A model generated the notes under the pieces. It was not told where the DNA came from. It saw only the letters and a program-made list of their open reading frames with translations, and made no database searches. The position numbers and the translations under genes are program-made. A DNA stretch of 30,459 nucleotides from IMG/VR virus record IMGVR_UViG_3300031774_000088, positions 1 to 30,459 of that record, one strand, 5' to 3'. The DNA is from a virus. Each line of letters begins with the position of its first letter. Within the stretch, counting starts at the first letter, position 1. Of the stretch, positions 7,524 to 30,410 are shown one piece after another.

Positions 7524-7826
7524 ATGTACGGTATGACCATATCTTCAAAACAGGCTAATATTCTCGTGGATTTCATCGACGAGGAAATGGCAGAATATGT
7601 TGAGAAGAAAGTAAAGGGAGTTGACCTGTCAGAACAGGGCAAAGCCTTTAGTACATACGAGGAGACTCGTACTGCTTTGATGGAGGTTAAGGGCTACGCC
7701 ACTGACATCATCAAGTATGCCAGACAACATTCTGGCACAATGACCACCCCAAATGCTTATCCTTTGCCCTATTATAGGGAGGATAATAGTGAGGTAATTG
7801 ATCCATGGCAGAATCAGAGTACCTAG
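7524..7826 (+). CDS. Hypothetical protein, 100 aa
   Basis: First gene after the 7479-7507 promoter. The product is acidic and helical for about 70 residues (FIDEEMAEYVEKKVKG), with a Pro/Tyr-rich tail (NAYPLPYYRED). No motif or family is recognised. The start ATG lies about 10 nt from the expected transcription start and has no clear Shine-Dalgarno sequence. The 3' end overlaps the next small gene by 22 nt. Believable because of promoter placement and dense packing. Confidence 0.6.
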   Translation: MYGMTISSKQANILVDFIDEEMAEYVEKKVKGVDLSEQGKAFSTYEETRTALMEVKGYATDIIKYARQHSGTMTTPNAYPLPYYREDNSEVIDPWQNQST

Positions 7827-23084: not shown

Positions 23085-23104
23085 GGACAGTTGATAAACT
23101 GTCA
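23085..23104 (+). repeat. 20-bp palindrome, family copy 1
   Basis: GGACAGTT-GATA-AACTGTCA, an 8-4-8 inverted repeat with one end mismatch, 2 nt after the methyltransferase stop. Related copies lie at 29281-29300 and 30353-30372. The -10-like TATATT begins 29 nt downstream. It is followed by A-rich sequence, not a U-tract, so this copy is a poor intrinsic terminator. Confidence 0.65.
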
Positions 23105-23141
23105 CAAGGGTTCCCCACTTTGGAACTTGTGGCTATATTAT
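23103..23141 (+). promoter_or_regulatory. Hairpin and weak -10 region upstream of 23165
   Basis: CACAAG-GG-TTCC (23103-23114) pairs with GGAACTTGTG (22-bp apart, 23122-23131), giving a bulged stem. TATATTATA (23134-23142) is a good -10 match, but no clear -35 box sits at the right distance. Together with the 20-bp palindrome this forms a 60-nt structured leader before the nuclease operon. Confidence 0.4.
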
Positions 23142-23164
23142 AGTTTAGTACCATGAGGTCTACT

Positions 23165-23443
23165 ATGAAATTAACCATTTCAAAGCAAGGTTTAGTCAAC
23201 AATGAGGAGTCATGGAACGATGATCTATCCACCCAACAACTCGTACGAACTGCTGTACATGCTGTACTTAAGCAGTTGGATCAAGAGGTTCTCGAAGAAT
23301 GGGAACTAGATGATGACTCTATTGAAATAGAATTTCATCACAACAATGTTATCTACAAGGGTACAGCAAATCCTAACGCAACTAATTCAGAGTTCGATGG
23401 GTATCCACCATATTATAACAGAGTCGGAGGTACAGCAGAATGA
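23165..23443 (+). CDS. Hypothetical protein, 92 aa, ahead of the nuclease gene
   Basis: ATG 23165 (MKLTISKQGLVNNEESWNDD) is preferred to the in-frame ATG at 23153: it has GAGG six nt upstream and lies about 17 nt from the expected transcription start. The product is acidic, with a helix (QLVRTAVHAVLKQLDQEVLE) and a beta hairpin (IEIEFHHNNVIYKGT). Its stop overlaps the nuclease ATG by 4 nt. Small acidic proteins beside a nuclease could be regulators or inhibitors, but no motif shows this. Unknown function. Confidence 0.6.
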   Translation: MKLTISKQGLVNNEESWNDDLSTQQLVRTAVHAVLKQLDQEVLEEWELDDDSIEIEFHHNNVIYKGTANPNATNSEFDGYPPYYNRVGGTAE

Positions 23444-24006
23444 AGATTAGAGATTTCAACGCTGTTACACCACCATTAGATACACCACGTATGTTAGATT
23501 TCTTGTACGCACTCAAGAAACTAAAATGGAAGGAGGGTACAGCACATGAGCATCAGATACGTGACCTACTCGATGAGTATGGCATAGTATATGAGTATCA
23601 ACCAAATGGTTCACAACAGTTCCCTGACTTTAATATCCCATCACGTTGGGGTACAATAGAATTAGAGGCCAAGTCTAGTAAGCAGGGACATCCCACATAT
23701 AATAGTGGTAGACCACATAAGGATGGATTGTATGTCTTTACATCAAAGAGACATGACTCTACTACAGTATACTGGGGACGTGATGTTCTCAAGGATGATA
23801 AGAGAGTATTATATGATGAGTACCTAGCAAAGCAGAAGGCATTGCTTCAGGAGTATCAGCAGAAACCTGAGTGGAAGGATGACCGTGGGTTTGACTTTTA
23901 CAACAGAGAGATGTATACTCAGAGTGGTGGCAAGGACTATACAGATTACTTTACCCACAAGGACCGTAACACATGCGAGGAGAATGTATATAATCACTTC
24001 CGATGA
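23440..24006 (+). CDS. PD-(D/E)xK nuclease-like protein (putative restriction endonuclease)
   Basis: A 188-residue protein. FPDFNIP (Pro62-Asp63) followed 13 residues later by ELEAKSS (Glu76-Ala-Lys78) fits the PD-(D/E)xK catalytic site, with a helix upstream (EHQIRDLLDEYGI) as in that fold. The later GLYVFTSKR and TTVYWGRDVL strands suit the core of small type II endonucleases. It sits between two methyltransferases, overlapping the second by 23 nt and touching the gene before by 4 nt, so an R-M-type function is the leading idea. It could instead be a recycling or homing-like nuclease. The assignment rests on motif spacing alone. Confidence 0.55.
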   Translation: MKIRDFNAVTPPLDTPRMLDFLYALKKLKWKEGTAHEHQIRDLLDEYGIVYEYQPNGSQQFPDFNIPSRWGTIELEAKSSKQGHPTYNSGRPHKDGLYVFTSKRHDSTTVYWGRDVLKDDKRVLYDEYLAKQKALLQEYQQKPEWKDDRGFDFYNREMYTQSGGKDYTDYFTHKDRNTCEENVYNHFR

Positions 24007-24862
24007 CTGTATCAATGCGTTAGATGGATATGATCCTCACTCATTTGATACATGTATAACTGATCCCCCATATGGTATGGGCATGGAACACTGGGATCAT
24101 AGTGTCCCAAGTGTAGAAATATGGCAAGAGGTACACAGGGTACTCAAACCTGGCGCATTCTTGCTATCTTTTTGCTCACCACAGTTATATCACCGCATGG
24201 CATGTAATGTGGAGGACGCAGGATTTGAGGTCAAAGATCAGATCATGTGGATGACCACAACCAAGATGCCTAAGGTCAACAGATTGAAACCAGCACATGA
24301 ACCCATTGTCGTTGCTCAGAAGAAACCAGATGGTAGTCTCCAAGATAACCATAACAAATATGGAGTGGGATTCATTAACACTGTGGATACCAGGATACCA
24401 TGGGATAAGGATCCACCGAAAGGGTGGGTCGCTCAAGGTGGAAAACGTAGAACCTTTGGTAAAGAGGGTAATACGACAGGTGGTGGAGCTGAGTATGGTA
24501 CTGTAGATGCTAATCCTGATGGTAGATACCCATCTAATATCATAGGTGAGGTACAACCAGAGCATCAGAAGTATTTCTATGCGCCTCGTGCTACTCGTAA
24601 GGAGAAGGGAGCAGACAATGATCACCCAACAGTTAAACCAGTATCCTTGATGGATTACCTGATACGTGTGTACTGTCCACCTAAAGGATGGGTATTAGAT
24701 CCATTTTGCGGGTCAGGCACCACTGGTGTGGCAGCATTAGCATTAGAGAGGTCATTCTTGGGCATTGATAGGGAGGATAAGTATGCTACCATCGCAGAGC
24801 AGCGGTGTGCAGATGCTGAACTGCCCACTGAGGTGTTCCCAGGTATGATTCCTGGTGTATGA
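23984..24862 (+). CDS. DNA methyltransferase, beta class (likely N6-adenine)
   Basis: A 292-residue enzyme. Start ATG 23984 has GCGAGGAGA just upstream and gives the normal N-terminus MYIITSDDCINALDGY; extending further upstream would overlap the nuclease more deeply and add non-conserved sequence. Motif IV is DPPYGMG (residues 27-33), typical of N6-adenine enzymes, and motif I is DPFCGSGTTGVAA (from about 239); HPTVKPVSLMDYLI before it is motif X-like. The different motif IV from the upstream enzyme implies different targets. The 23-nt overlap with the nuclease gene suggests translational coupling, as in compact restriction-modification pairs. Confidence 0.85.
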   Translation: MYIITSDDCINALDGYDPHSFDTCITDPPYGMGMEHWDHSVPSVEIWQEVHRVLKPGAFLLSFCSPQLYHRMACNVEDAGFEVKDQIMWMTTTKMPKVNRLKPAHEPIVVAQKKPDGSLQDNHNKYGVGFINTVDTRIPWDKDPPKGWVAQGGKRRTFGKEGNTTGGGAEYGTVDANPDGRYPSNIIGEVQPEHQKYFYAPRATRKEKGADNDHPTVKPVSLMDYLIRVYCPPKGWVLDPFCGSGTTGVAALALERSFLGIDREDKYATIAEQRCADAELPTEVFPGMIPGV

Positions 24863-24892
24863 TATAGAAGTAATCAACAAAGGATCACACTT

Positions 24893-25072
24893 ATGTCTTC
24901 TTACAAGGTTCTATGTAAGCAAGTATCCTATTTCTATGTGAATGTGGATGCTGAAAGCGAGAGATCAGCAGAGGAGCAGTGTGAAGTTGTGGATCTCCAT
25001 TCAGGAGACACAGATTATGACGAATTAAATGACCAGCAATGGTCAGTTCTTAGTGCTTCGGAGGTACTTTAA
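24893..25072 (+). CDS. Hypothetical protein, 59 aa
   Basis: Begins MSSYKVLCKQVSYFYVNVDA and ends with the acidic VVDLHSGDTDYDELND and then SASEVL. It is a beta-then-acidic pattern seen in small phage proteins. It starts 30 nt after the methyltransferase stop and its TAA overlaps the next ATG. No family recognised. Confidence 0.5.
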   Translation: MSSYKVLCKQVSYFYVNVDAESERSAEEQCEVVDLHSGDTDYDELNDQQWSVLSASEVL

Positions 25073-25326
25073 TGGCTAAACTAACAACCAATGTATCAAA
25101 TTCACATCTCAAGAATGCTGTGAAAGCACTAACCGCTTGGACAGACAGGGTTGAGAGTGGTGAATTTGAACTCGAACCTGGTACATATCAAGCATTTAAG
25201 GGTGCTCGTGAGCATATCTCATGTGAGATAGCAAAGCAGCATCGTCAACGCAAGAGGAAGATCAATGTTAACATTGTTTCTGATCCAGAGAGGCAGAGTG
25301 CTCTGAGGATGCAGTATGAACGATAA
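25072..25326 (+). CDS. Hypothetical protein, 84 aa
   Basis: A helical protein with a basic C-terminal third (CEIAKQHRQRKRKINVNIV), hinting at nucleic-acid binding. The start overlaps the previous stop (TAATG); the end overlaps the next small gene by 11 nt. No motif beyond charge pattern. Confidence 0.55.
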   Translation: MAKLTTNVSNSHLKNAVKALTAWTDRVESGEFELEPGTYQAFKGAREHISCEIAKQHRQRKRKINVNIVSDPERQSALRMQYER

Positions 25327-25480
25327 TCATTATGCATTACCAGTATACTTCACCAAGACTGAGGTTAAGTTCCTCAAGTTCTGTTTGAGTGAGAGTATGA
25401 GTTGGAAGTATCACAATAAGGATACAACACAACAACAGATTATCCTTAAGAAGATACACCAATTATCTGAGCAGGAGTAG
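25316..25480 (+). CDS. Hypothetical protein, 54 aa
   Basis: MNDNHYALPVYFTKTEVKFL followed by a Lys/Gln-rich helix (TTQQQIILKKIHQLSEQE). The frame fills the space between the 84-aa gene and the metalloprotease region with 11 nt overlap upstream. Unknown function. Confidence 0.45.
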   Translation: MNDNHYALPVYFTKTEVKFLKFCLSESMSWKYHNKDTTQQQIILKKIHQLSEQE

Positions 25481-25481
25481 T

Positions 25482-25661
25482 ATGCTTCGCACAATGAAAC
25501 TATTATTTGTTATCACTGGAGTTTGGTTTCTACATTGGTTATGTCTCATTCCATTTGCATTACAGGTCACCGTCAACAGAGGCGCATCACAAATGCCTTC
25601 ATTGACTGGTATGTACCAAAGTATATCGGTAAACGGTATAAATTGGACTTCAATATTATAA
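25482..25661 (+). CDS. Candidate small membrane protein overlapping the protease gene
   Basis: A 59-codon frame starting 1 nt after the previous stop: MLRTMKLLFVITGVWFLHWL, with a hydrophobic segment to about residue 28 that looks like a signal anchor. It overlaps the metalloprotease frame by 121 nt if that gene starts at 25541, far more than other junctions here. Both could be real, or this one may be a chance frame or a short leader. The good hydrophobic N-terminus and tight upstream junction keep it in the list. Confidence 0.35.
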   Translation: MLRTMKLLFVITGVWFLHWLCLIPFALQVTVNRGASQMPSLTGMYQSISVNGINWTSIL

Positions 25662-25987
25662 CGAAGGGATGTAAGCGTGAGGGCATCTATGGTGAAATGG
25701 GTGTGCTCGATGAATTACATCGTCCTAGACTGTTTGAGATAGTATTACACTCTGGTTTATCCAAGTGGGACTATCTCACAACACTAGCACATGAAATGAT
25801 ACACGTTAAGCAGCGTGTACATAAGGAGTTCGTTACCAAATACGATACGAACTACTGGCATAGGGAGCGTGTTCCGTCCTCAACCAAGTATGAGGACGAA
25901 CCATGGGAGATAGATGCTCGGAGTTGGGAGAAGTACATAGCTATGAGAGCTATTCAAGAGGGTGTGGTCAATGTGACACCTGAATAA
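25541..25987 (+). CDS. SprT-like zinc metalloprotease
   Basis: A 148-residue protein from ATG 25541; an in-frame TTG at 25523 is a weaker alternative. TLAHEMIHVKQ (HEMIH at residues 84-88) is the HExxH zinc site with catalytic Glu85, and a later PWEIDARSW supplies an acidic residue suited as third ligand. Overall size and the FIDWYVPKYIG start fit SprT-like domains, related to proteases that cut DNA-protein cross-links. Next to DNA methyltransferases and a helicase, a DNA-linked task is reasonable but inferred. Followed by a terminator-like hairpin. Confidence 0.65.
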   Translation: MSHSICITGHRQQRRITNAFIDWYVPKYIGKRYKLDFNIITKGCKREGIYGEMGVLDELHRPRLFEIVLHSGLSKWDYLTTLAHEMIHVKQRVHKEFVTKYDTNYWHRERVPSSTKYEDEPWEIDARSWEKYIAMRAIQEGVVNVTPE

Positions 25988-26005
25988 GTGACCATAATAG
26001 CATGA

Positions 26006-26050
26006 AACCTCGTTGGTATGCCCTATAATATGGGTATCAACGAGGTTTTT
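26006..26050 (+). terminator. Terminator-like hairpin that hides the helicase ribosome-binding site
   Basis: AACCTCGTTG (26006-26015) pairs perfectly with CAACGAGGTT (26038-26047), with further TA and CCC/GGG pairing inward, then a T5 run: a good intrinsic terminator after the protease gene. The 3' arm includes GAGG (26042-26045), the Shine-Dalgarno of the helicase (ATG 26053). The loop contains TATAAT (26024-26029); a transcript starting there would lack the 5' arm and leave GAGG free. Confidence 0.75.
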
Positions 26051-26052
26051 CA

Positions 26053-27300
26053 ATGCAACTCCGTCCACATCAAGAGCGAACACTTGAAGCGATGCGCTCT
26101 AATGTGACAGGCACAGTGTTCATACCCACAGGTGGTGGTAAGACTATTTGTATGATCAAGGATCTAGAGGAGAGATTACACTCTGCCTTTGGAGGTCGTA
26201 CACTTACAATAGTATGTGCCCCACGTATTATGCTAGCAATACAGTTAGCACAAGAGTTCGATGCTAATCTACCTGATGATATCAAGTTCACAATAGGTAG
26301 TGTACACAGTGGTGATTCACCCTATTGGAGTAGCACCGACACTGATGAGATTGAACAGTTCATTGATAACGCAACTAAGTTCAAGTCTCACACAATATTA
26401 TTCACAACATACCATTCTTTACACAAGATCAAGAAGTTTGGTAAGCACAATCTATTCATTGATCACCTATACTGTGATGAGGCACACAACGCAACACAGA
26501 GAAACTTCTTCCCTCATGTATCAAACACAGCATTGAATAGCATGGTGAGTTATTTCTTCACTGCTACACCAAAGTATAGTACTAAGCATGAGCGTGGTCT
26601 TAACAATCAGGAAGTATTTGGTGACAATCTCATCACTGTAAGTGCTGATGAGTTGTTAGAGTGTGGATCAATCATCCCACCAACAGTCAATGTACATACA
26701 ATTGATAGTGTACGTAGTAAGAAAGAGATGGCACACATCGATGCTGACACTATTATACATGTAGTTGATGCTGAAGACGCACAGAAGGTGCTTGTAGCTG
26801 CCCCTAGTGCTCGTATAATCAACCAAATGCTATCACATACTGATTTGTATACTCAACTCAAGTCACGTGGTTACAGCATCCTACGCATTACCAGTAAGCA
26901 TGGAGCGTGGATAGATGATAAGAAGGTCAATAGAACACAGTTCTTTGATCAGTTACACGCATTAGGAGCAGAGGATGGTGCTAAGTTCGTACTTCTACAC
27001 TATTCTATACTCTCTGAGGGTATAAATGTAGCAGGACTGACCAATGTAGTGCTTCTACGTAACCTAGGTGTGGTAGAAATGGCGCAGACTATTGGTAGAG
27101 TGATCAGATTAGATAAGAATGACCGTGAGGACATTACTAATGGCACACTACAACCAACAGCATACCAGAACTATAGAAAACCAACTGGATTTGTAACCAT
27201 TCCAGTGTATTCTAACTATGGTAAGAACACTGCTGGTAGAGTACAAAGAACAGTCAATACTATCTTCAATGAGGGTAAACCAGCAACAGCATGGATCTAA
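26053..27300 (+). CDS. Superfamily 2 DEAH helicase
   Basis: A 415-residue enzyme with SF2 motifs in order: Q-like RPHQERTLEAM (I-preceding), Walker A PTGGGKT (25-31), DEAH (142-145), FTATP (motif III, about 169-173), SEGINV (motif V, 321-326), and QTIGRVIRLDK (motif VI, from 345). The closest patterns are UvsW/RecG-style and the helicase part of type I/III restriction subunits (RPHQ, TGGGKT, DEAH). It is shorter than T4 UvsW (about 500) and has no nuclease domain. The start is set by GAGG seven nt upstream. It overlaps the next oxygenase by 10 nt. The role could be DNA branch migration, repair or motor partner of the nearby nuclease. Confidence 0.8.
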   Translation: MQLRPHQERTLEAMRSNVTGTVFIPTGGGKTICMIKDLEERLHSAFGGRTLTIVCAPRIMLAIQLAQEFDANLPDDIKFTIGSVHSGDSPYWSSTDTDEIEQFIDNATKFKSHTILFTTYHSLHKIKKFGKHNLFIDHLYCDEAHNATQRNFFPHVSNTALNSMVSYFFTATPKYSTKHERGLNNQEVFGDNLITVSADELLECGSIIPPTVNVHTIDSVRSKKEMAHIDADTIIHVVDAEDAQKVLVAAPSARIINQMLSHTDLYTQLKSRGYSILRITSKHGAWIDDKKVNRTQFFDQLHALGAEDGAKFVLLHYSILSEGINVAGLTNVVLLRNLGVVEMAQTIGRVIRLDKNDREDITNGTLQPTAYQNYRKPTGFVTIPVYSNYGKNTAGRVQRTVNTIFNEGKPATAWI

Positions 27301-27902
27301 CCCTTACAAACGATCCTAGAGGGCATACAGCAATGATTGAGACCATGTTCAGTATACCATTGATTCGTATTAAATGTGATCGATGGTTGTATAAGAAGAA
27401 TAAACTATTAGATCTCATCCCCCATGATGATATGGACAAAGGGGATGAGACTATCATATCAAATTATCAAGGTGCTAATAACCTTACAGGTAGCATCACG
27501 GACATATTATCACCAGAACTAGACCAAGTGCGTCAACAGATAGGTGGTGGTGCTCGTATCGTACGCTCATGGTTTGAGAGTGCTGATAATAATATGTTTC
27601 ATCCACCCCATACACATGGTCATGGAGGGTGGAGCGCAGTATTATTTGTAGACTACGATCACTCAGTACATACAAGCACTATATTTGTTAGCCCATTCAA
27701 TCATTTCATCAATGGACTACAGTTACAGTACAGACCAGAGTGTACTGAGGGTGATCTCATACTATTTCCTAGTATGTTATTACATTACACACTACCTAAC
27801 ACATCAAATGTGCGTAGAACAGTGTGTTCATTCAATCTAACTGTTGATATGGACAATCTACCCTTGTCATGGACACCTGACGAACTGGACCTCAACCAGT
27901 AG
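27291..27902 (+). CDS. 2OG-Fe(II) oxygenase-like protein
   Basis: A 203-residue protein overlapping the helicase by 10 nt. HPPHTHGHGGWSAVLFVDYD (His107, His109) followed by ILFPSMLLHYTLPN (His165) and RRTVCSFNLTVDM (Arg175/176) gives the same layout as TIGR02466-type oxygenases, with His-x-His in place of His-x-Asp. It is about the size of the 9806 gene but clearly diverged from it. The cluster of histidines before the barrel is unusual. Substrate unknown. Confidence 0.65.
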   Translation: MDLTLTNDPRGHTAMIETMFSIPLIRIKCDRWLYKKNKLLDLIPHDDMDKGDETIISNYQGANNLTGSITDILSPELDQVRQQIGGGARIVRSWFESADNNMFHPPHTHGHGGWSAVLFVDYDHSVHTSTIFVSPFNHFINGLQLQYRPECTEGDLILFPSMLLHYTLPNTSNVRRTVCSFNLTVDMDNLPLSWTPDELDLNQ

Positions 27903-27927
27903 ACACACATGGTCAGAGTGCTATAAT
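27900..27927 (+). promoter_or_regulatory. Sigma70-like promoter with leader inverted repeat
   Basis: TAGACA (27900-27905) and TATAAT (27922-27927), spaced 16 nt. Just downstream, GTTGAG (27934-27939) and CTCAAC (27952-27957) form an inverted repeat in the untranslated leader. The promoter follows the oxygenase stop and precedes the small genes from 27987. Confidence 0.55.
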
Positions 27928-27986
27928 TAATATGTTGAGAGGAAATCACCACTCAACCACCCCATGATCATTTACTCTCTTTTCCA

Positions 27987-28115
27987 ATGAGCATTGCTAC
28001 TCCTTCAGTTAGTCCTCAGTTCGTGTATTATGCGTTCAGATCATGCCAAAATGGTAATGACCTGCTACAGCGTATCGATGACCTAATCCTTGATAACGTA
28101 TTACTCAATAGATAA
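27987..28115 (+). CDS. Hypothetical protein, 42 aa
   Basis: MSIATPSVSPQFVYYAFRSC then QNGNDLLQRIDDLILDNVLL. It is the first frame downstream of the 27900-27927 promoter, filling most of the 235-nt gap before 28138. No clear Shine-Dalgarno and no known family; the 42-codon length makes it tentative. Confidence 0.4.
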   Translation: MSIATPSVSPQFVYYAFRSCQNGNDLLQRIDDLILDNVLLNR

Positions 28116-28137
28116 CAACAGTAGCACAATCTAGATC

Positions 28138-28383
28138 ATGCCCCATGAACTACCATACTCTAAGGGAGATCGTATACAAGTAGATGGAGAAGTGGGTGTC
28201 GTTAATTTCATCGGCACCCATTATCTTACTCTCACGACGCATGAATGGGAAAACAAGAACACACTACATGGTGTGTCTCAGACTAATGTTCTCATCTATC
28301 GTCATCTCTGGCCAACCATTCAACTCATTAAATCCAATGTGGAGTCTAACTCAAATGAACATCACATCGATTCAAGCATGTGA
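28138..28383 (+). CDS. Hypothetical protein, 81 aa, small beta-barrel-like
   Basis: Starts MPHELPYSKGDRIQVDGEVG then VVNFIGTHYLTLTT; this KGDRI-x-V-x-G-x-V-N-F-I pattern of alternating beta strands suggests an SH3/KOW-like small barrel, a form I associate with small cyanophage proteins from memory. The C-terminus is polar. The end overlaps the next gene by 29 nt. Role unknown. Confidence 0.55.
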   Translation: MPHELPYSKGDRIQVDGEVGVVNFIGTHYLTLTTHEWENKNTLHGVSQTNVLIYRHLWPTIQLIKSNVESNSNEHHIDSSM

Positions 28384-28555
28384 CCAAGACGTAACCATCG
28401 TCACGCAGAAGAAGAGAAGAGGAGTATATTGGAGCTATGAACACTTGAATAAGTTCTATGGACCATTCAAGAGTGAAGGACAGGCAGTCAATGATGCCAA
28501 AACGTATAGTAAGTATGGCACTACAAATAGGAAGTTCATTCCATCATCCACTTAA
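28355..28555 (+). CDS. Hypothetical protein, 66 aa
   Basis: ATG 28355 (MNITSIQACDQDVTIVTQKK), overlapping the previous gene by 29 nt. The sequence RRGVYWSYEHLNKFYGPFKS and GQAVNDAKTY reads as a compact basic/aromatic domain. A longer in-frame extension upstream exists but lies over the 81-aa gene. No family recognised. Confidence 0.45.
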   Translation: MNITSIQACDQDVTIVTQKKRRGVYWSYEHLNKFYGPFKSEGQAVNDAKTYSKYGTTNRKFIPSST

Positions 28556-29126
28556 TATTGATAAGAAACTCCTAGTGATTACTCATCTGGGTAAACATAT
28601 CATAGAGGAGTTTAATATTAATAGACATGAGTTGGAGTATAAGAACTTCAACCATTATCAAGAGGAGACGATTAAGAAGACAGGGCAAGGACAATCAATT
28701 GATATGGAGCAGTATGATGCTGCGCCTGATTGTGATGGTAGTGGCTGGTGCCTTGCCCCATTAATATACAATGGTAATGATTACACAAGGAATAGTAATC
28801 ATATGCCTAAGACAACCAAGATATTAAATCATATTGGTCATACATCATACACAGGCATAGCAGTATTATATCCTGAGTATGGACTAGACTGGCACTATGA
28901 TGATGATCAATTCATAGGACATGACTTGTGTCAGTTCAGAGTATTCTATACACTAGATGATGGAGGCGGAGGAGCATATATTGAAGTAGAAGAGACAGAG
29001 AAGAAGATAGTAAAGAGATACTTCAGAGAGAGGGAGTATGTATGTTTTCATAGTAAGAAAAGACACAGAGTATGGAATGAAGGTATTCTACCAAGGTATT
29101 GTCTAGTAATTGACGTTTTGAAATAA
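28515..29126 (+). CDS. 2OG-Fe(II) oxygenase-like protein
   Basis: A 203-residue product from ATG 28515; in-frame ATGs at 28458, 28491 and 28494 are possible and none has a clear Shine-Dalgarno, so the start is uncertain. DWHYDDD (His127, Asp129), KRHRVWNEG (His184) and RYCLVIDVL (Arg194) give a 2OG-Fe(II) triad in a beta-rich C-terminal half, with a helical N-terminal half. It is unlike the three other oxygenases and may act on a different substrate, peptide or nucleotide. The 3' end abuts a 240-nt regulatory gap. Confidence 0.55.
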   Translation: MALQIGSSFHHPLNIDKKLLVITHLGKHIIEEFNINRHELEYKNFNHYQEETIKKTGQGQSIDMEQYDAAPDCDGSGWCLAPLIYNGNDYTRNSNHMPKTTKILNHIGHTSYTGIAVLYPEYGLDWHYDDDQFIGHDLCQFRVFYTLDDGGGGAYIEVEETEKKIVKRYFREREYVCFHSKKRHRVWNEGILPRYCLVIDVLK

Positions 29127-29280
29127 ATGTTATTCTAAATGTATCTGTGCGTGGATACTCAAGGATAGTATCCTGAGAATATAGTGTGCTTAATGAGAAT
29201 AAAACATGGTGTAAATGGAGTTAAATGTGCGGACTTAGTGTGGTCTAAGCCTGCGGCGTACCAAATGTCAACCACTCGGA
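29127..29280 (+). promoter_or_regulatory. Structured intergenic region with two hairpins
   Basis: GGATAC (29153-29158) and GTATCC (29168-29173) pair, and the alternative CTCAaGGA / TCCTGAG (29158-29177) overlaps them, so two folds compete. Further on, GCGG-A-CTTAG (29229-29238) pairs with CTAAG-CC-T-GC (29245-29254) around the loop TGTGGT, a strong stem. Neither has a U-tract. A weak TTGACG (29110-29115) with TCTAAA (29134-29139) at 18 nt could start a short RNA here. Confidence 0.45.
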
Positions 29281-29291
29281 GGACACTTTGA
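29193..29291 (+). CDS. Possible 32-aa ORF
   Basis: ATG 29193 to TGA 29289-29291: MRIKHGVNGVKCADLVWSKP and then AAYQMSTTRRTL. It is highly basic and spans the 29229-29254 hairpin. No ribosome-binding site stands out, and the stop falls within the 29281-29300 palindrome. It may be chance; listed because the gap otherwise holds no frame. Confidence 0.25.
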   Translation: MRIKHGVNGVKCADLVWSKPAAYQMSTTRRTL

Positions 29292-29300
29292 GAACTGTCC
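29281..29300 (+). repeat. 20-bp palindrome, family copy 2
   Basis: GGACACTT-TGAG-AACTGTCC, 8-4-8 with one internal mismatch (C-C). It is followed by ATTTTTATT, so it also works as a terminator-like hairpin on the + strand. The -10 box of the next promoter begins 30 nt downstream. Confidence 0.65.
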
Positions 29301-29307
29301 ATTTTTA

Positions 29308-29336
29308 TTGCAAGTTGCCACCTTTGGCCTTATAAT
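29308..29336 (+). promoter_or_regulatory. Sigma70-like promoter
   Basis: TTGCAA (29308-29313) and consensus TATAAT (29331-29336) with 17-nt spacing. The expected start, about 29343, gives a 23-nt leader before ATG 29366. Strong enough to be a host-polymerase (early-type) promoter for the three small genes that follow. Confidence 0.75.
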
Positions 29337-29365
29337 TAGAAAGTAGTCACAACAGATTAATTCCA

Positions 29366-29662
29366 ATGGCACCCGCCAAAACTACAAAACCCGTCAAAAA
29401 ACGGGCAACTCGCAAGAAAAAGCAAAAGGACGTACTTTTTGACGTTTCTGAGATTTCCACAGCTATTATGACAATAGCCATAAAAGATCAGAAAGTATGT
29501 ATAGTATTCCAAGGGCAAGAGAAGGAGTACATTTACAACTACTCTGAAGATCTCACACTATTTGTGAAAGAGATAGAGAAGTTTGTAAGTGAACAACATC
29601 TATCACTTGGGCGATACTTTAACACTTTGGTTAAAGATGGCAAACTTACTCAAAATGTATAG
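29366..29662 (+). CDS. Hypothetical protein with basic N-terminus, 98 aa
   Basis: First gene after the strong promoter. The N-terminal 25 residues are nearly all Lys/Arg/Thr/Ala (KPVKKRATRKKKQKD), like a DNA- or RNA-binding tail. The rest is a small alpha/beta domain (IAIKDQKVCIVFQGQEKEYI; FVKEIEKFVSEQHLSLGRYF). Being promoter-proximal it may be an early host-takeover or nucleic-acid-binding protein; no family is recognised. Confidence 0.6.
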   Translation: MAPAKTTKPVKKRATRKKKQKDVLFDVSEISTAIMTIAIKDQKVCIVFQGQEKEYIYNYSEDLTLFVKEIEKFVSEQHLSLGRYFNTLVKDGKLTQNV

Positions 29663-29664
29663 TA

Positions 29665-29847
29665 ATGAGTAAAAGTAGTAGGAACTTAAGAAAGTCACAG
29701 CATTCATCATTTTCTCAGAAAAAGAGAGAATACTACGAGAATGCTGACTTATCTGATAGTGGATACCTGGACATGTTATCAAATAGGCAGAGAATTAATA
29801 AGACCAAAGACTTAGATTACGATGAACTAACCGACTTTGGAGATTAA
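29665..29847 (+). CDS. Hypothetical protein, 60 aa
   Basis: Two nt after the previous stop. A Ser/Arg/Lys/Gln-rich N-terminus (SKSSRNLRKSQHSSFSQKKR), then an acidic tail (YDELTDFGD). Likely intrinsically disordered. Unknown role. Confidence 0.5.
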   Translation: MSKSSRNLRKSQHSSFSQKKREYYENADLSDSGYLDMLSNRQRINKTKDLDYDELTDFGD

Positions 29848-29851
29848 CCCC

Positions 29852-30034
29852 ATGGACTATCAATCAGTGATCACACATTACCATGAAGGTAAACTTAACC
29901 CGGAGGAATGTGTGTCCTTGATTCAATTCCTACTGGACACAGATCTTATCAACAACTATCCAGAATTACTGGAGGTTGGTGACTACTACGTCGCAGAGGG
30001 TTTGTGTTACTTTGTGCCTACAATATCATCCTAA
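29852..30034 (+). CDS. Hypothetical protein, 60 aa
   Basis: ATG 29852 (MDYQSVITHYHEGKLNPEEC) is preferred over an in-frame TTG at 29837. The helical body (VSLIQFLLDTDLINNYPELL, then EVGDYYVAEGLCYFV) has a two-helix shape of a type I associate with cyanophages from memory. It is the last + strand gene before the convergent - strand genes. Function unknown. Confidence 0.55.
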   Translation: MDYQSVITHYHEGKLNPEECVSLIQFLLDTDLINNYPELLEVGDYYVAEGLCYFVPTISS

Positions 30035-30042
30035 TAGTTTAC

Positions 30043-30105
30043 ACCCCGAAGGACAGGAATTGCACCTGTCCAATGTAGAGTATGTTTGTACTATCCAACT
30101 CAGCT
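30043..30105 (-). other. tRNA-like remnant between convergent genes
   Basis: Read on the - strand, GGACAGG-TGCAATT-CCTGTCC (30051-30071) is shaped like a T-arm and AGCTGAGTTGGATAG (30091-30105) like a tRNA D-loop with its GG. But the D stem does not pair, no anticodon arm forms, and no partner for the acceptor-side CCTTCGG is present. So it is at best a decayed tRNA, or a hairpin that only resembles one. GGACAGG...CCTGTCC also echoes the 20-bp palindrome family. Confidence 0.3.
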
Positions 30106-30133
30106 GGATTTTTTTCAATCCAGCGTTGGTTTA
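30101..30133 (-). repeat. 33-bp exact direct repeat with hairpin, copy 1
   Basis: Identical to 30378-30410. It holds the inverted repeat CTGGATT-N6-AATCCAG and, on the - strand, begins with the TAA stop of the gene at 30131-30310. On the - strand the stem follows the stop by 7 nt, in terminator position, but no U-tract follows. Confidence 0.85.
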
Positions 30134-30310
30134 GTCCTCATCCTCAAATTTGAGTTCGTGATCGCATTCTATGACGGACTCCCAGAGAGAGTCAAATGCA
30201 TCCTCGTGAGAGGGAGGAAGGTCCAGCGAGGCGACCCCGCTGAGACACTCATTCAAAAGAGCGTGCTGCTCTGAGTTGAGTGTGATCGTGAATTGGTCTT
30301 TGATTTCCAT
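30131..30310 (-). CDS. Hypothetical acidic protein, 59 aa, - strand
   Basis: Starts MEIKDQFTITLNSEQHALLN and ends WESVIECDHELKFEDED. The ATG at 30310 is preferred over one at 30349 because the -10 box TATTAT lies between them. That -10 is so close that the transcript would begin near the ATG itself, with little or no leader. It is the only complete - strand gene; its end overlaps copy 1 of the 33-bp repeat. Small helical protein, role unknown. Confidence 0.55.
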   Translation of the reverse strand: MEIKDQFTITLNSEQHALLNECLSGVASLDLPPSHEDAFDSLWESVIECDHELKFEDED

Positions 30311-30315
30311 ATACG

Positions 30316-30322
30316 TATAATA
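30316..30322 (-). promoter_or_regulatory. -10 box for the - strand gene
   Basis: TATTATA on the - strand, 30 nt from the 20-bp palindrome at 30353-30372. No good -35 box at 17 nt. The ATG at 30310 is 6 nt away. Confidence 0.4.
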
Positions 30323-30352
30323 CACGAAAATGGGACACCAAACACACAAAAG

Positions 30353-30372
30353 GGACAGTCTCTCAACTGTCC
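30353..30372 (-). repeat. 20-bp palindrome, family copy 3
   Basis: On the + strand GGACAGTC-TCTC-AACTGTCC; flanking AG/CT bases extend the outer stem to AGGGACAGT / ACTGTCCCT. On the - strand it is followed by TTTTGTGTGTTT, so it can end transcription of the upstream - strand gene, while a -10 box for the next gene lies 30 nt further. Confidence 0.7.
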
Positions 30373-30377
30373 CTAGG

Positions 30378-30410
30378 CAGCTGGATTTTTTTCAATCCAG
30401 CGTTGGTTTA
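30378..30410 (-). repeat. 33-bp exact direct repeat with hairpin, copy 2
   Basis: Identical to 30101-30133, and likewise starts on the - strand with the TAA stop codon of a - strand gene (30408-30410). The two copies are 277 bp apart. Confidence 0.85.

Follow-up and report, generated by a model that had tools for sequence, protein, structure and literature searches.

A constant-distance inverted repeat before the -10 box of T4-like cyanophage promoters, a putative activator site

What purpose is served by several copies of one palindrome, each found some 30 nucleotides (nt) ahead of a -10 box? The question is raised by the stretch of DNA analysed here (the window), a 30.5-kb virus record (IMGVR_UViG_3300031774_000088), which represents part of a T4-like cyanophage genome; the named records nearest to it are Prochlorococcus phages P-HM2, P-SSM7, MED4-213, and P-HM1. 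An earlier note on its sequence had reported three such palindromes, at 23085, 29281, and 30353, and had taken them for either a shared regulator site or a terminator-promoter unit. All three are present, each with one mismatch to GGACAGTTN4AACTGTCC, and they exceed chance, given that dinucleotide shuffles contain 0.15 on average and that none of 100 shuffles reaches three. In our opinion, each palindrome would constitute the upstream half of a phage promoter, and the dyad is likely to be the site of a putative dimeric activator, centred near -53 and probably serving early genes.

A dyad at constant distance from the -10 box

The element is a degenerate inverted repeat, GTGMCASTT-N4-AASTGKCAC, separated by 30-32 nt (mode 31) from a downstream -10 box resembling TATAAT. 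At least 120 viral contig stretches contain the exact palindrome, in most cases with an equally distant -10 box; a TATAAT-like hexamer is found at 30-32 nt in 43 of 63 nonredundant exact-palindrome sites, against a background of less than about one per other position. Because the distance should not be chosen beforehand, gaps of 15-45 nt were allowed in a search from the dyad to TATAAT, and 90 of 101 nonredundant viral sites had a gap of 30-32, 48 of these a gap of 31. An iterated position matrix returned GTGMCASTT-N4-AASTGKCAC, a gap of 31, and then TGCTATAATAA. It should be noted that, because all training sites of the matrix had a -10 box, its -10 is there partly by construction, which is not true of the gap distributions of the 63- and 101-site sets. 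In a set of 494 nonredundant sites, the gap is 31 in 257, 32 in 114, and 30 in 98. Thus, the relatives scanned for the distance from palindrome to TATAAT exhibit a constant spacing, the opposite of the random distances that the earlier note had named as evidence against its proposal.

Syn9 and P-TIM40 have the dyad, as do other T4-like cyanophages. With the dyad relaxed to allow three mismatches at most, sites that have a -10 box at 29-32 nt occur 6 times in Syn9, 9 times in P-HM2, 16 in P-SSM2, 15 each in S-PM2 and P-TIM40, and 10 in P-SSM7, where about one site per genome is expected by chance; the same search gave none in T4 and none in Ma-LMM01. By the matrix, marine cyanomyovirus genomes contain approximately 10-23 strong sites each, and T4 and Ma-LMM01 contain 0. 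A stricter pattern produced 44 matches versus one control match in 17 phage records. The 44 include matches in the freshwater phage S-CRM01 and one in S-TIM5; among the same records, the stricter pattern was absent from HTVC008M, phiM12, P-SSP7, T4, and Ma-LMM01, as well as from Syn9, the sites of which are degenerate.

Two side observations concern the spread of the motif. A second geometry, in which the palindrome immediately precedes a TTGAC -35 box and the -10 box is about 25 nt away, is seen in eight loci (L002, L003, L020, L044, L072, L091, L100, and L117); these palindromes often adjoin a tRNA gene, and the site may serve another purpose there. The standard promoter pattern also occurs in two contigs with many tiny open reading frames (ORFs) that were binned as a freshwater Microbacteriaceae metagenome-assembled genome (L207 and L210); these contigs are probably misbinned freshwater cyanophage.

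When the 494 sites are aligned on the -10 box, no -35 consensus emerges, the TTGACA signal being missing 16-18 nt before the -10. Counted from the start of the hexamer, position +12 is a purine in 95% of the sites and position +13 is a T in 76%, neither position having been used for selection. This purine-T pair presumably marks the initiator, in the place expected for +1. Because +1 is placed at hexamer +12, the dyad is predicted to span about -63 to -44, with its centre near -53. Of 105 genome sites, 59 have their first start codon 15-24 nt past this predicted +1. Two features of an activator-dependent sigma-70 promoter, a -10 box at a fixed distance from an upstream site and the lack of a -35 consensus, are present. 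The shared regulator site of the earlier note is thus supported as regards a place upstream of the promoter, with a spacing kept in hundreds of cyanophage sites, while its position moves from the proposed -41 to -61 to approximately -63 to -44.

The dyad is conserved where its surroundings are not. Orthologues of a helicase encoded in the window, with amino acid identities of 31-48%, are present at about 30 other loci, most of which have the dyad at the same position, while the DNA from dyad to -10 shows no relationship among orthologues and often contains a different terminator. Families that recur downstream of the dyad are CobS, a large VWA/peptidase-like protein, the helicase, and small proteins without assigned function.

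Further evidence comes from the two arms of the palindrome. A first count of arm pairing on the 494 sites gave significant tables; because that set includes loci fetched by the exact palindrome, the test was redone on a set of 105 sites located in whole genomes or in the window. In the latter set, Watson-Crick pairing between the arms equals the independent-arm expectation at all eight positions, tests for covariation gave p=0.50 (S6 x S15) and p=0.54 (M3 x K18), and G-G or C-C is seen at the variable G/C position 6/15 just as often as a pair. T-runs come after the palindrome at 15 of 440 sites versus 18 of 440 on the opposite side. Given the absence of covariation between the arms and of a T-run behind them, the palindrome is, to judge from these alignments, a duplex binding site and not a terminator. 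The independent variation of the arms, together with the missing T-run, points to two equal half-sites, each of which would be recognised on its own, as fits a protein dimer.

Five sites in the window

The matrix places five dyad promoters of the highest class in the window, at 23085, 25974, 27871, 29281, and 30353. Hence the set of three copies, although real, was incomplete, since degenerate copies of the same geometry are also present at 25974 and 27871 on the plus strand. Of the gaps of 29, 30, and 30 nt given in the earlier note, the latter two are correct for copies 2 and 3, whereas copy 1 has a gap of 31 to TATTAT, and 29 is obtained only if TATATT is taken as the hexamer. The features are as follows, with composite scores for the dyads and +1 positions inferred from promoter geometry.

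23085..23104, plus strand: dyad copy 1, GGACAGTT-GATA-AACTGTCA, score 28.4, gap 31
23136..23141, plus strand: copy 1 -10 hexamer TATTAT, predicted +1 at G23148
23165 (ATG) to 23443, plus strand: ORF downstream of copy 1, starting 17 nt past the predicted +1, with GAGG ahead of the ATG
25974..25993, plus strand: dyad TGACACCT-GAAT-AAGTGACC, score 26.6, gap 30, upstream of the ResIII/DEAD helicase ORF (26053-27300)
26024..26029, plus strand: helicase promoter -10 hexamer TATAAT, predicted +1 at A26036, ATG at 26053
26004..26050, plus strand: strong terminator-like hairpin with U-tract (-25.1 kcal/mol, z -7.0), the helicase promoter -10 box lying within its loop
27871..27890, plus strand: dyad GGACACCT-GACG-AACTGGAC, score 26.9, gap 31, within the 3' end of ORF 27291-27902
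27922..27927, plus strand: -10 hexamer TATAAT of the 27871 site, predicted +1 at G27934, downstream gene uncertain
29281..29300, plus strand: dyad copy 2, GGACACTT-TGAG-AACTGTCC, score 26.3, gap 30
29331..29336, plus strand: copy 2 -10 hexamer TATAAT, predicted +1 at G29343
29366-29662, plus strand: ORF downstream of copy 2 (phrog_4357, no assigned function), starting 23 nt past the predicted +1
30353..30372, minus strand: dyad copy 3, GGACAGTT-GAGA-GACTGTCC, score 27.1, gap 30
30317..30322, minus strand: copy 3 -10 hexamer TATTAT, predicted +1 at A30310, which is the A of the ATG of a leaderless ORF (30310-30131)
7718..7737, plus strand: weak candidate TGCCAGACAACATTCTGGCA, 32 nt before TATTAT, score 21.3, not used

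An R-T initiator stands exactly at the predicted +1 in all five promoters (G23148, A26036, G27934, G29343, and A30310). Like that of the helicase gene, the copy 3 dyad is kept in the orthologous loci L031, L034, L053, and L077, and the leaderless start at 30310 (minus strand) is common to the same four; leaders of zero length are also seen in other families downstream of the dyad. The small minus-strand gene at 30131-30310 is bracketed, in a cassette-like manner, by two direct repeats of CAGCTGGATTTTTTTCAATCCAGCGTTGGTTTA (30103-30136 and 30377-30410, about 274 bp apart), each of which has the form of a terminator-like hairpin.

As for the remainder of the window, its first half contains baseplate and fibre genes. 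From about 21 kb onwards, DNA methyltransferases, the ResIII/DEAD helicase, 2OG-Fe(II) oxygenases, and many small ORFs without assigned function are found. A comparison of the window with Rfam gave no match.

The putative activator and the alternatives

A mechanism consistent with the constant geometry can be outlined. A symmetric protein dimer would bind the dyad as duplex DNA, between about -63 and -44; on a fixed face and at a fixed distance of approximately three helical turns from the -10 box, the dimer would hold the host RNA polymerase on promoters lacking a -35 box and so activate them, probably by contact with the alpha C-terminal region or sigma region 4. The dyad promoters would be mainly early ones. 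In P-HM2, the metabolic genes all belong to the middle class (PMC5082946). The strong P-HM2 sites are located in a cluster of small ORFs at 33-40 kb and by a few further genes, none of them metabolic or structural, and the dyad promoters in general cluster in small-ORF regions before gp25. Since strong sites are absent by the middle-class metabolic genes and by the structural genes, the promoters look, by elimination, early.

Several points weigh against an early-gene activator. The timing is deduced from the location of the genes, and the element is also found at cobS and at the large peptidase-like gene next to it. A scan of 37 conserved P-HM2 proteins, which are present in most or all of five other cyanophages, identified no recognisable activator DNA-binding domain. 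Moreover, if the promoters are early, the binder must be a host factor or enter with the virion, and the hosts show no such regulon. The stronger proposal, that cyanophage early promoters need a virion-borne, phage-specific dimeric activator of unrecognised fold (or a host factor without a comparable regulon), is for us a tentative and somewhat doubtful one; if true, even the first phage genes would be under positive control, unlike those of T4. Separately, it was observed that DUF6561/Sm-like paralogues occur in several copies among the conserved cyanophage proteins (P-HM2 core proteins; L127 and L128).

The first alternative, a variant of the activator reading, is a hijacked host regulon, in which the binder would be a cyanobacterial transcription factor whose own genes are controlled through the same site. 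Early phage genes normally depend on host machinery, and host-type NtcA and Pho promoters have been described in cyanophages (Sullivan et al. 2010; PMC3037559). Nevertheless, the dyad differs from the NtcA motif GTA-N8-TAC, and a search of 201 host-family genomes with the strong consensus, which leaves very degenerate host sites outside its reach, gave two matches where about 1.7 are expected by chance from base counts. Across bacterial and archaeal genomes totalling 257 Gb, the full promoter pattern likewise has 18 matches, which is of the order of chance (an estimated 9 or so), and the sole Prochlorococcus match lies on a 189-kb phage contig, the sampled part of which carries genes of phage structural type and the methyltransferase cluster of the window. 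Because the host matches are at chance numbers, the element belongs to phages, the dyad is rejected as a site of a host regulon, and we regard this alternative as unlikely.

Alternatively, the dyad could be an operator bound by a repressor, for example for shut-off late in infection, with the promoter running on unaided host sigma-70 polymerase. A repressor could equally use a dyad in a fixed place, the scanned core proteins yielded no activator, and a -35 can be dispensable for a -10 box that has a weak TG extension. However, the missing -35 argues for a need of help, and a repressor acting by simple steric hindrance would have no need of the strict 30-32-nt spacing, since the dyad centre near -53 falls upstream of the footprint of the polymerase core. 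A repressor therefore seems to us quite improbable.

The idea that the palindrome works as RNA, i.e., as a terminator or processing stem that ends the upstream gene beside the promoter, is highly improbable and, as a conserved function, refuted by the missing covariation and T-run: copy 3 does fold well (-16.3 kcal/mol, z -3.9) and heads the list of terminator-like sites, yet the copy 2 RNA does not fold through its own arms, and a terminator needs no fixed distance to the next -10. The terminator-promoter unit of the earlier note accordingly falls as far as the palindrome itself is concerned; its T-rich stretches after copies 2 and 3, with none after copy 1, do exist but are, genome-wide, not a property of the element. 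Intrinsic terminators are found between dyad and -10 at 79 of 440 sites (about 18%), with 0 in simple shuffles, so that the terminator of the upstream gene is nested within the promoter of the next. These terminators are hairpins separate from the dyad.

Comparison with known promoter systems

T4-like cyanophages are among the commonest viruses of the sea, and how their transcription starts without Alt, ModA/B, MotA, and AsiA, the genes for which cyanomyoviruses lack, was called unclear, for early and middle control alike, in a 2010 review (PMC2984593). The dyad defines one promoter class exactly and in a searchable form, with start sites predicted to the base. It also delimits a regulon of mostly small genes without assigned function, which likely act in host takeover, and may be used as bait for the missing regulator.

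The element has probably been seen before. Doron et al. (2016) reportedly described a novel regulatory element for the early genes of Syn9, similar in P-TIM40, and abundant and conserved in T4-like cyanophages. The dyad is likely the same element; given this likely earlier description, its discovery is not claimed here. A literature text search with the half-sites (AACTGTCC; ACTGTCC with cyanophage) returned no cyanophage-promoter paper among the matches listed.

Similar architectures are known from other systems. In the late promoters of P2/P4, which are activated by the zinc-finger proteins Ogr/Delta, an interrupted dyad likewise replaces the -35 box, several promoters per phage are of this kind, and the dyad is centred near -55. 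The P2 consensus, TGT-N12-ACA (PMC3931495), differs from GTGMCASTT-N4-AASTGKCAC, and the cyanophage dyad is present at 10-23 sites per genome. Ogr/Delta (PF04606) was found in none of 13 records searched and is rejected as the binder.

The middle promoters of T4, a member of the same phage superfamily, combine an upstream box with a sigma-70 -10 and have no -35; the MotA box, unlike the cyanophage element, is not a dyad and lies at -30, and T4 itself lacks the cyanophage dyad. MotA (PF09114) was above the cut-off only in T4 (control, 3e-63) and in none of the cyanophages searched; for this reason, it is rejected as the binder.

Finally, in NtcA-activated cyanobacterial promoters, a dyad centred near -41 replaces the -35 box upstream of a TAN3T -10, an arrangement that parallels that of the dyad promoters. 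The consensus is a different one, the NtcA site being GTA-N8-TAC (PMC3037559) as compared with GTGMCASTT-N4-AASTGKCAC, predicted near -53, in the cyanophages.

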